Assembly (NCBI RefSeq): GCF_000744815.1
Contig: NZ_JQMQ01000005.1
Span: 1,000,055-1,064,054, forward strand
Length of the DNA: 64,000 nucleotides
Reading direction: 5' to 3'
Origin: Phaeacidiphilus oryzae TH49
GTDB taxonomy: Bacteria > Actinomycetota > Actinomycetes > Streptomycetales > Streptomycetaceae
In this document: positions 537 through 42,947 of the stretch, in pieces
Position numbering within the stretch: the stretch's first letter is position 1
Layout of the letters: every line of letters starts with the position of its first letter
The notes under the pieces: model-generated
The model's input: only the letters and a program-made list of their open reading frames with translations
Told to the model about the DNA's origin: nothing
The model's database searches: none
Program-made: the position numbers and the translations under genes

Positions 537-2117
537 GGCGGCCGGTACGACGGCGCCCTTGAAGGTCCGCCGGATGTACTCCTGGACCTGCTCGGACTGG
601 AGGAGCTTGAGCAGCTTCCGCACCCGCGGGTCGTTCTGGTGCCCGTCCTTCACCGACAGGACGTTGGCGTACGGATTGCCCTTCGCGCTCTCCAGCAGGA
701 TCGAGTCCCGGTCCGGGTCGAGCCCGGCGTCCAGCGCGTAGTTGCCGTTGATGATCGCCGCGTCCACGTCGTCCAGCGAGCGCGGCAGCTGGGCCGCGTC
801 CAGCTCCTTGAACTGGAGGCGCTTGGGGTTGCCGGTGATGTCCTGGACGGTGGCGCCGGTGCCGGCGCCGCTCTTCAGGGTGATCAGGCCGTCGTCGGCG
901 AGCAGCTTGAGGGCGCGGCCCTCGTCGGTGGCGTCGTCGGGCACCGCGATGGTGGCTCCGGCGCCCAGCTGAGCGGTCTTCTTCACCTTGTGCGAGTAGA
1001 GGCCGAGCGGCTCCAGGTGCACCGGCCCGACCGAGACGATGTGGGTGCCGTGCGTCTTGTCGAAGTCGTCCATATAGGGCACGTGCTGGAAGTAGTTGGC
1101 GTCGGCCGAGCCGTCCTCGACGGCGGTGTCCGGCGTGACGTAGTCGTCCACCACCTCGATCCGCAGCTTGAGGCCGGCCTTGGCGGCCAGGTTCTTCCGC
1201 ACGTACTCCAGGATCTGGGCGTGCGGCACCGGGCTCGCCACCACGGTCAGCGGGGCGTCGGCGGCGGCCGCGGAACCGCCGGAGGAGGCCGGGCCGCCGA
1301 CCCCCCAGGCGACCCCGCCGGCCACGACCGCGGCCGCGGCCACCGCAGCGGTGGCCACCCTTACCGGGCGCCGGGCGAAGAGCGGCCCGAAGGCGCGTCC
1401 CAGCGCCCGGCCCAGCCGGCGGCCGAGGGCGCTGCGGTGCTCGGCGCCGCCGCGGTGGTCGAGTGCCCTCGCCAGCCCGTCGCCGACCAGCTGGACGAGG
1501 GTGACCAGCACGACCAGCTCGACCACGATGACGACCATGAAGCGGGTGTCGAACCGCATGTAGCCGTTGGTGATCGCCAGCGAGCCGAGCCCGCCGCCGC
1601 CCACCGTGCCGGCCATCGCCGAGTAGCCGATCAGCGCGATCACCGTGGTGGTGAGCCCCGCGACAAGCGAGGGGAGGGACTCCGGCAGCAGGGCCTTGCG
1701 GACCACCGTCCAGGTGCCGCCGCCCATCGCGTGGACGGCCTCCACCAGCCCGCCGTCCACCTCGCGGACGGCACTCTCCACCAGCCGGGCGAAGAACGGG
1801 ATGCCGCCGATCGCCAGGGGCACCGCGGCCGCCTGCCAGCCCAGCGAGGTGCCCACCACCCAGCGGGTGAACGGGATCAGAGCCACCATCAGGATCACGA
1901 AGGGCAGCGACCGGCCGATGTTGACCAGCGCCGACAGCGCCTTGTTGAGCACTGCCGCCGACGGGCCGCCGCGCAGCAGGCCACCGCGGTCGGTGAGCAC
2001 CAGCAGCACCCCGGCCGGGAGCCCGACCGCCACGGTGACCAGTGCGGCTATGCCGACCATCCCCAGCGTCTGCCAGGTCCCGTAGGGCAGTTGGGACCAG
2101 ATATCCGACCAGCTCAT
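534..2117 (-). CDS. Methionine ABC transporter: fused MetI permease and MetQ/NlpA binding protein
   Basis: A 527-residue protein in one open frame. Residues 1 to about 215 are a MetI-type permease: several membrane segments and the EAA-loop region EAVHAMGGGTWTVVRKALLP that contacts the ATPase. After an Arg-rich linker, an Ala/Val membrane segment (about 250-272) is followed by a complete NlpA/MetQ binding domain (about 285-527) with the recognisable ADANYFQHVPYM motif. MetQ is usually a separate lipoprotein; here there is no lipobox, and the domain would be held outside the membrane by the extra segment. It overlaps metN by 4 bp, so the two are translationally coupled. Importing D/L-methionine is the likely role; the fusion is plainly visible, the substrate is inferred from family. 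Confidence 0.88.
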   Translation of the reverse strand: MSWSDIWSQLPYGTWQTLGMVGIAALVTVAVGLPAGVLLVLTDRGGLLRGGPSAAVLNKALSALVNIGRSLPFVILMVALIPFTRWVVGTSLGWQAAAVPLAIGGIPFFARLVESAVREVDGGLVEAVHAMGGGTWTVVRKALLPESLPSLVAGLTTTVIALIGYSAMAGTVGGGGLGSLAITNGYMRFDTRFMVVIVVELVVLVTLVQLVGDGLARALDHRGGAEHRSALGRRLGRALGRAFGPLFARRPVRVATAAVAAAAVVAGGVAWGVGGPASSGGSAAAADAPLTVVASPVPHAQILEYVRKNLAAKAGLKLRIEVVDDYVTPDTAVEDGSADANYFQHVPYMDDFDKTHGTHIVSVGPVHLEPLGLYSHKVKKTAQLGAGATIAVPDDATDEGRALKLLADDGLITLKSGAGTGATVQDITGNPKRLQFKELDAAQLPRSLDDVDAAIINGNYALDAGLDPDRDSILLESAKGNPYANVLSVKDGHQNDPRVRKLLKLLQSEQVQEYIRRTFKGAVVPAA

Positions 2118-41142: not shown

Positions 41143-41526
41143 TCACGCCGCCTTGGGGGCGTTGACGTCGGCCGGCAGGGCCTTCTGCGCGACCTCGACC
41201 AGCGCGGCGAACGCGTTGGGGTCGGTCACCGCGAGGTCGGCCAGCATCTTGCGGTCGACCTCGACGTTCGCGGCCTTGAGGCCCTGGATGAAGCGGTTGT
41301 AGGTCATGCCGTTCGCACGCGCCGCGGCGTTGATCCGCTGGATCCACAGCTGGCGGAAGTCGCCCTTGCGCTTCTTCCGGTCGTTGTAGTTGTAGACGAA
41401 CGAGTGGGTGACCTGCTCCTTCGCCTTGCGGTACAGGCGCGAGCGCTGCCCGCGGTAACCGCTGGCGCGCTCGAGAACGACCCGGCGCTTCTTGTGGGCA
41501 TTGACTGCCCGCTTGACGCGTGCCAC
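41143..41526 (-). CDS. rplT: 50S ribosomal protein L20
   Basis: A 127-residue, strongly basic protein with the family pattern [66 protein letters not shown] and [15 protein letters not shown]. It binds 23S rRNA early in assembly and in Bacillus represses its own operon. Third gene of infC-rpmI-rplT. Confidence 0.98.
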
Positions 41527-41630: not shown

Positions 41631-41825
41631 TCACTTGCCGAGAAGCTTCTTGATCTTCTTGGCGTCGGCCGGGGCCATCTCGACCGTGCCGGCGAGGCGG
41701 CGGGTCAGCGTCGAGGACTTGTGCTCGAGCAGGTGACGGCGGCCGGCGCGCTGGCGCAGCACCTTGCCGGAGCCGGTGAGCTTGAAGCGCTTGCTGGCAC
41801 CGCTGTGCGTCTTGTTCTTCGGCAT
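41631..41825 (-). CDS. rpmI: 50S ribosomal protein L35
   Basis: A 64-residue basic protein: [20 protein letters not shown] then [19 protein letters not shown], matching L35 over its length. ATG 41825 is the conserved start; an in-frame extension exists but is not part of the family. Lies 128 bp after infC and 104 bp before rplT. Confidence 0.97.
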
Positions 41826-41953: not shown

Positions 41954-42616
41954 CTACTCGCCTTCGGGCGCCTGCTCGGCGTCCGGAGTCTCGTCGGCGT
42001 CGGTCGCGACGTCGGCATCGACGTCGGCGTCGATGTCCTGGCGTCCCTGGCGCTCCGCCTTACGGGCGGCGGCCGCCTCGCGGGCTTCGGCCATTGCCTC
42101 GGTCTTCTTCTTGTGCGGACCGAGAACCATGATCATGTTCCGGCCGTCCTGCTTGGGATTGGACTCGACGAAGCCGAGGTCCTGGACGTCCTCCGCGAGC
42201 CGCTGCAGCAGCCGGTAGCCCAACTCGGGGCGCGACTGCTCACGACCGCGGAACATGATCGTGATCTTGACCTTGTCGCCCTGCTTGAGGAACCGAACGA
42301 CGTGACCCTTCTTGGTGTCATAGTCGTGCGGGTCGATCTTCGGCCGGAGCTTCATCTCCTTGATGACCGTGTGCGCCTGGTTCTTGCGCGCTTCACGGGC
42401 CTTCATGGCGGACTCGTACTTGAACTTGCCGTAGTCCATGAGCTTGCACACCGGCGGCCTGGCGGTCGCCGCGACCTCGACCAGGTCGAGGTCGTACTCC
42501 TGGGCAAGTTCCAGGGCCTTGGCAAGCGGCACGATGCCGACCTGCTCGCCGCTGGGACCGACGAGTCGCACCTCGGGGACGCGAATCCGGTCGTTGATGC
42601 GGGGCTCGGTGCTGAT
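41954..42616 (-). CDS. infC: Translation initiation factor IF-3, with a non-canonical ATC start
   Basis: A 220-residue factor that keeps 30S subunits free and checks the start codon. The conserved N-terminus reads [20 protein letters not shown] and must begin at ATC 42616-42614, because GAGGAGG lies four bases before it; no ATG or GTG is at this place and a start at the next one (GTG 42574) would cut 14 conserved residues. E. coli infC also starts at a rare codon (ATT), the basis of IF-3 autoregulation. The N-domain ([19 protein letters not shown]) and C-domain ([21 protein letters not shown]) are complete, with an acidic Asp/Glu tail usual in Streptomyces. Confidence 0.93.
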
Positions 42617-42710: not shown

Positions 42711-42745
42711 AAAAAAGAGCCTCGCGCTGCACGCAAGCGAGGCTC
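42711..42745 (-). terminator. Intrinsic terminator inside the infC leader (attenuator)
   Basis: On the minus strand GAGCCTCGC (42745-42737), an 11-base loop, GCGAGGCTC (42725-42717) and six T (42716-42711). It ends 95 bases before the infC start. The only minus-strand transcript reaching it is the infC leader, since the next gene upstream is divergent. A U-tracted terminator is rare in this genome. Confidence 0.85.
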
Positions 42746-42897
42746 CACATCATCATCCGAACCCGGGGACGCCGGGATTCCCACCCGGCCCGGGTTCGGA
42801 AGCGGTCACCGCCGCCCCGATGAAGGACGCGGTTCCGCTTGACCTGACCCGTCGGCCCGGAGGTCGATCGGGTGGGAGACTGATCATGTGGAGCCTC
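42739..42897 (-). promoter_or_regulatory. 12-bp long-range pairing that competes with the infC leader terminator
   Basis: GAGGCTCCACAT on the minus strand at 42897-42886 is exactly complementary to ATGTGGAGCCTC at 42750-42739. The first copy covers four bases of the upstream reading frame's Shine-Dalgarno and two of its ATG. The second covers seven of nine bases of the terminator 5' arm. The pairing and the terminator cannot coexist, the arrangement of an antiterminator switch. Confidence 0.65.
42753..42887 (-). CDS. Candidate upstream reading frame (44 codons) in the infC leader
   Basis: ATG 42887 with GGAGG six bases upstream; the product starts MISLPPDRPPGRRVRSSGTA and ends GGNPGVPGFG. 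The TGA (42755-42753) is three bases before the pairing strand of the switch and eight before the terminator stem. A ribosome finishing here would cover the terminator 5' arm. No homolog is recognised. Being in the leader, it is probably translated for regulation rather than for its product. Proline codons are frequent (10 of 44 with several PP pairs), which could slow ribosomes. Confidence 0.45.
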   Translation of the reverse strand: MISLPPDRPPGRRVRSSGTASFIGAAVTASEPGPGGNPGVPGFG

Positions 42898-42941
42898 CAC
42901 TTGCGGACCGGGCACAGAAGTGTCCGGTCGGTCAGTCCGAA

Positions 42942-42947
42942 AGCATA
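42942..42947 (-). promoter_or_regulatory. Probable -10 of the infC operon promoter
   Basis: TATGCT on the minus strand; no strong -35. It would start transcription near 42935, about 30 bases before the Shine-Dalgarno of the leader reading frame. Confidence 0.35.

Follow-up and report, generated by a model that had tools for sequence, protein, structure and literature searches.

E. coli and B. subtilis are the only species for which control of L20, L35 and IF3 synthesis has been described (review PMC10931766). In B. subtilis, the L20 leader (RF00558) precedes the same operon as the one studied here and adopts alternative structures, one of which is a terminator that is freed by the ligand (PMC10931766, PMC6097659), and it is L20 that drives termination at this infC leader (PMC10931766; PMC6097659). 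In a published survey, L20 leaders were confined to Firmicutes and Thermotogales (PMC3766115). The infC and rpmI-rplT genes of E. coli share with our locus a non-AUG start of infC (ATC in the window), but E. coli regulates them at the level of translation, with L20 sites ahead of rpmI, whereas at our locus a transcription terminator precedes infC. The deltaproteobacterial L20 motif and other r-leaders (Eckert and Weinberg 2020) are similar in kind to our leader, a probable r-protein leader in an L20 operon, and their AA dimer with neighbouring G-C pairs recalls features of it; the deltaproteobacterial motif has a different scaffold and comes from a different phylum. The r-leader table of the same study lists no infC-operon leader for Actinobacteria (PMC7247131). 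A Firmicute-type L20 leader can be ruled out at our locus by the lack of an RF00558 match: the model has none in the genome of the window, and 0 of 118 class genomes pass its cut-off. A conserved attenuator here would supply the missing case for the class that includes the main antibiotic producers, and would add another RNA that solves the control of this operon independently.

The window, by which we mean the whole 64 kb stretch of Phaeacidiphilus oryzae TH49 DNA that was analysed, contains the infC-rpmI-rplT operon on its minus strand, preceded by a leader (Table 1). The initial annotation had pointed to three elements in this leader, and all are present in the sequence: a 44-codon frame running from an ATG at 42887 to a TGA at 42755-42753 with GGAGG ahead of it, a terminator at 42745-42711 whose 9-bp stem is followed by six U (the sole run of six T or six A within the window), and a complement between 42897-42886 and 42750-42739 that is exact over 12 nt and reaches 16 of 17 nt when lengthened. 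The stop of the frame does lie just before the second strand of this complement, but the spacing is 2 bases rather than the 3 that had been given, and the longer pairing runs into the stop codon.

Table 1. Positions of the leader elements and operon genes in the window, with the basis of each assignment.
Feature	Coordinates	Strand	Basis and remarks
-10 promoter element TATGCT	42942..42947	minus	sequence; transcript start expected ~42936
Leader RNA, matches Rfam RF02830 Scr1601	42712..42936	minus	66.4 bits, E 5.4e-12
Closing helix Pa (tentative): TGACC 42934-42930 with GGTCA 42844-42840	42840..42934	minus	encloses P0 (42929-42906), P1 and P2
P1 hairpin, GGAG 42898-42895 / CTCC 42878-42875, proposed anti-antiterminator	42875..42898	minus	helix 1 of covariation analysis
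P2 bulged hairpin ACCCG-A-TCGACC..GGCCGACGGGT	42847..42873	minus	helices 2-4 of covariation analysis
Antiterminator 5' strand CAAGTGG(A)GGCTCCACATGATCA	42881..42903	minus	fold and co-evolution; overlaps P1 and uORF start
Antiterminator 3' strand TGATGATGTGGAGCCTCGCTTG, holds terminator 5' arm	42734..42755	minus	fold, duplex table, pair-type table
Intrinsic terminator GAGCCTCGC-N11-GCGAGGCTC-TTTTTT, 9-bp stem + U6	42711..42745	minus	sequence
44-codon open frame, probably not a functional part	42753..42887	minus	ATG in 2/227 distinct leaders; GC3 0.70
infC (IF3)	41954..42616	minus	Pfam IF3_N + IF3_C; ATC start 42616-42614; GGAGG at 42625-42621
rpmI (ribosomal protein L35)	41631..41825	minus	Pfam PF01632, E 9.3e-25
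rplT (ribosomal protein L20), proposed ligand source	41143..41526	minus	Pfam PF00453, E 1.3e-44

The start of the transcript is placed at ~42936 because the 5' end of the Scr1601 match lies there, and most relatives have a GGTAnnnT-type box ahead of their GACC start, the same as the -10 box of the window. From the end of the U-tract at 42711, about 94-95 nt remain to infC. The leader of the window folds at -129.3 kcal/mol against -97.5 +/- 4.7 for its shuffles (z -6.7, with 0 of 200 shuffles as low), and an exact complement of at least 12 nt arose in 3 of 500 dinucleotide shuffles. Folding, which had been proposed with the initial annotation, gave the antiterminator form as the one of minimum energy, in which the complement belongs to a larger helix that includes CAAG and GCTTG as well. 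This form is 7 kcal/mol more stable in the window fold than the form with P1 and the terminator (-129.3 vs -122.2). GGAGG is paired in both conformations, and Pa appears in the fold on which the terminator was imposed.

We aligned 274 infC loci from the family Streptomycetaceae and the class Actinomycetia by the N-terminus of IF3, and the CAAGY-P1-P2 junction was found upstream of infC in 271 of them, across the class. Motifs resembling CAAGNGGAG, together with CCACC, occur in all but three of the 274, for the most part 150-350 nt before infC. From 52 non-redundant cores we built a covariance model (R1), which recovered 72 of the 74 class infC loci held out from it at E<0.01; its single genome-wide match in the genome of the window is the one at infC (42908-42839, 58.9 bits). 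Over the alignment P1 and P2 are 90.4% paired, with changes on both sides in 11 of 16 pairs; P1 (helix 1) is 95% paired, with four of its five pairs changed on both sides. The covariation score of P1-P2 is 0.199 compared with 0.107 for shuffled alignments and at most 0.078 when the strands are slid, and none of 500 shuffles reached any of the five measures. The A-U, C-G and C-G pairs at the base of P2 are nearly invariant, as are the bases of CAAG, CCACC and GGGU. The tentative closing helix Pa takes its support only from a GATC/GGATC lineage: its strands read GACC/GGTC in 196 distinct leaders and GATC/GGATC in 10. A swap test of Pa gave no signal (z 0.3), a failure probably due to the near-invariance of its two strands and to rough detection of the P2 end. 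R1 also matched an infC leader, L291, from a different class of the phylum. A phylum-wide scan with R1 was run under strict filters and is no fair census; L293 was dismissed as a chance match. The L291 leader (~1501-1565, minus strand) has the same core and a terminator before infC, and its CAAGCGAGGG pairs with CCCUCG in the terminator loop. From this leader, the sequence comparison suggests that the element may be older than the class. Leaders of the Kitasatospora type (L040, L041, L056, L067 and relatives) carry a conserved 30-nt insertion, CAGGAGGCCCGAGAGGGCAACCGCGAAAG, in the loop of P1, which is absent elsewhere.

The terminator and its competing pairing were also followed across relatives. 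Of 104 non-redundant leaders, 90 gave a call for a hairpin with a T-rich tail, some of these calls being wrong hairpins, and the remaining 14 yielded no terminator call, so some lineages may regulate differently. In silico, the 17 nt from CAAG of each leader were paired with the same leader downstream. Among 90 non-redundant leaders, 56 had their best duplex on the called terminator 5' arm, where random placement would give 11.3; this is a lower estimate, as the terminator finder misses some. In a restricted test, the mean duplex energy was -18.9 kcal/mol for own pairs compared with -16.1 for permuted ones (sd 0.29; z -9.8, n=75), and outside Streptomycetaceae z was -7.2 (n=53), both z values being made optimistic by shared ancestry; a control window 40 nt upstream gave z -0.2. 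The partners shift together, from GGCUCC/GGAGCC in Streptomycetaceae to UGAUCC/GGAUCA in Nocardiopsis and GGCCACCU/AGGUGGCC in Actinomadura, with GCCUCGACU/GUCGAGGU among other co-changing pairs, and this diversity of compensated sequences is, for a pairing predicted from sequence, a stronger argument than the z values. Two exclusive helices thus share the 5' arm of the terminator and both are conserved, which is what defines an attenuator. Comparison across relatives shows the RNA, the predicted P1-P2 structure, the terminator and a co-evolving antiterminator, and lends strong support to the initial proposal that two mutually exclusive structures control transcription into infC-rpmI-rplT. The search for covariation suggested alongside that proposal found it in P1-P2, and found co-evolution in the pairing of the antiterminator with the terminator arm. 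We consider the switch very probably real. In some Streptomyces-type leaders (L002, L012, L063, L262, L263), an extra helix just upstream, GGCGGUGCUCC..GGAGCCCCGCC, is a further competitor for the terminator 5' arm and may serve Streptomyces as a second antiterminator. Other leaders (L241-L249, L205, L223 and others) keep the P1-P2 core with no clear intrinsic terminator found before infC, and their output may be a different one (translation or Rho).

The initial annotation knew of no description of such an RNA in Streptomyces. That did not hold, since the Streptomycetaceae form is already in Rfam as RF02830, albeit filed as a small RNA. A cmscan of the leader gave one match, Scr1601, over its full length (1-209), spanning 42936-42712 and thus placed before infC (42616) and ending at the terminator. 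At 66.4 bits, the leader scores under the RF02830 gathering score of 100 bits, and it is, judged by position and predicted structure, an orthologous but divergent relative of Scr1601 rather than a curated member. Matches at E<=0.01 were found in 239 of 249 Streptomycetaceae genomes, P. oryzae being the sole genome of its genus searched, and in 35 of 297 class genomes, mostly Streptomycetaceae. RF02830 stems from a survey of small RNAs in S. coelicolor, and scr1601 was confirmed there as a discrete RNA (cited in PMC8388888); in S. ambofaciens, RNA-seq places the Scr1601 homologue in a UTR (PMC8388888). Scr1601 and our leader have the same locus and the same RNA ends, yet the former is filed as an sRNA (Rfam type 'Gene; sRNA') and is in practice limited to Streptomycetaceae. 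The Rfam entry line for RF02830 and the literature searched mention no cis function, terminator switch or class-wide core. For the class-wide element, or any Actinobacterial infC leader, no description was found in Rfam, through the L20_leader model or in the literature; subscription papers lay outside this search, and priority is accordingly not certain.

We infer the direction of the switch, the sensing of a protein, and L20 as that protein, as follows. A structured RNA (Pa/P0/CAAGY/P1/P2), conserved through Actinomycetia, precedes infC. By default its CAAGYGG(A)GG+NNCC strand would pair with the 5' arm of the terminator and allow read-through into infC. If P1-P2 were stabilised, P1 would reclaim this strand, the terminator arm would be freed, and transcription would stop ~95 nt before infC, leaving as product the short RNA catalogued as Scr1601. 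Because the CAAGYGGAG strand can pair in either P1 or the antiterminator, and the terminator arm in either the antiterminator or the terminator, stabilisation of P1-P2 must favour termination; and because the antiterminator form is the more stable one in the window fold, read-through would be the default and termination would need an added binder. The stabiliser would most likely be L20, from the last gene of the operon, closing a feedback loop. Given a real switch, we rate L20 as a slightly better than even candidate for its ligand. As with L20-responsive leaders, the operon encodes L20 and has a terminator before infC. An AA dimer and two consecutive G-C pairs are common to the known L20 sites (PMC7247131). 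Our leader has features of that kind which recall those sites, an invariant AA in A1 and, in P2, two neighbouring C-G pairs that hardly vary. Mimicry of rRNA is not demonstrated, since R1 has no match in the 23S rRNA of the window genome. By eye, the leader and the H40 region have GCAUCGAC in common, which was set aside as a common 8-mer near chance. Our main reading, to which we give a probability of roughly 0.6, is that the leader is a cis-acting transcription attenuator of infC-rpmI-rplT in which P1-P2 is stabilised most likely by L20, as in Bacillus but by an unrelated RNA. Pa/P0/P1/P2 would then probably be a new L20- (or IF3-) binding scaffold that attenuates the operon in nearly all Actinomycetia, with Scr1601 as its aborted transcript; an RNA catalogued as a small RNA would turn out to be a short transcript released at a regulated terminator.

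The same attenuator could respond to another ligand, with IF3 or L35 binding P1-P2 and promoting termination. Both proteins are encoded in the same operon, and ATC stands at the aligned start of infC, with GGAGG before it, in 272 of 274 class loci (in the alignment by the IF3 N-terminus). In E. coli-like logic, a non-AUG start of infC marks IF3 feedback at translation. The class-wide ATC start suggests that such feedback operates besides the attenuator, and IF3 as ligand would then double the feedback at two levels; moreover, no IF3- or L35-dependent attenuator was found in the literature searched, and we regard this variant as possible but doubtful. A constitutive partial terminator, whose stable stem sets a fixed ratio without sensing, has in its favour that a ligand of the leader is something we infer. 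However, the conserved unpaired CAAGY, the bulged P2 and the two exclusive, covarying pairings are more than such a terminator would need, which makes it improbable. We consider it similarly improbable that Scr1601 is a trans-acting small RNA whose placement before infC is incidental, as its Rfam type and the discrete S. coelicolor RNA cited in PMC8388888 might suggest, because the element stays before infC across the class, lies in a UTR by the S. ambofaciens RNA-seq, and has its conserved pairing internally, to its own terminator arm.

The initial annotation had instead given control to ribosomes, which by initiating or terminating on the 44-codon frame would decide whether the terminator forms. 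Leader-peptide (uORF) attenuators likewise have a short frame overlapping alternative hairpins, and in the window genome the frame, its Shine-Dalgarno-like GGAGG and the overlap with the pairing are real; the likeness is confined to this genome, and relatives do not conserve the frame. Of 227 distinct leaders, only 2 have an ATG 4-11 nt after GGAG. In most Streptomycetaceae, the matching stretch reads GGAGGCTCCGNNCTCCC, without the inserted ACATGATCAG, and by this comparison the ATG of the window frame is a local insertion. When conserved frames preceded by a Shine-Dalgarno sequence were sought, frames of at least 15 codons appeared in 15 of 104 non-redundant leaders, at scattered and unrelated positions. 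The GC3 of the window frame is 0.70, compared with 0.90 for infC, and is not coding-like. Other lineages have GGAA, GAAG, GGGGG or GAGGG in place of GGAGG, compensated by changes on the partner side, and P1 stays paired; because the replacements are compensated, GGAG would serve base pairing rather than act as a Shine-Dalgarno sequence, in keeping with its pairing in both folds. With the ATG rare, the frames scattered, GC3 low and GGAG changing while P1 is kept, a link to translation is not the conserved function, and the frame as sensor was ruled out by its non-conservation and codon composition, leaving control by ribosomes very unlikely indeed. In P. oryzae alone, the short frame could act as a private modifier of the attenuator that we favour.

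Closer to the gene, at ~42670-42617, there is a second segment conserved in the family, CGCGGCUGUCCGCCAGNC..GUCGCGUGGUGCNACCGAGGAGG, which lies immediately ahead of the Shine-Dalgarno sequence of infC. It is hairpin-like, was not seen in other families, and is present in most Streptomyces-type leaders.
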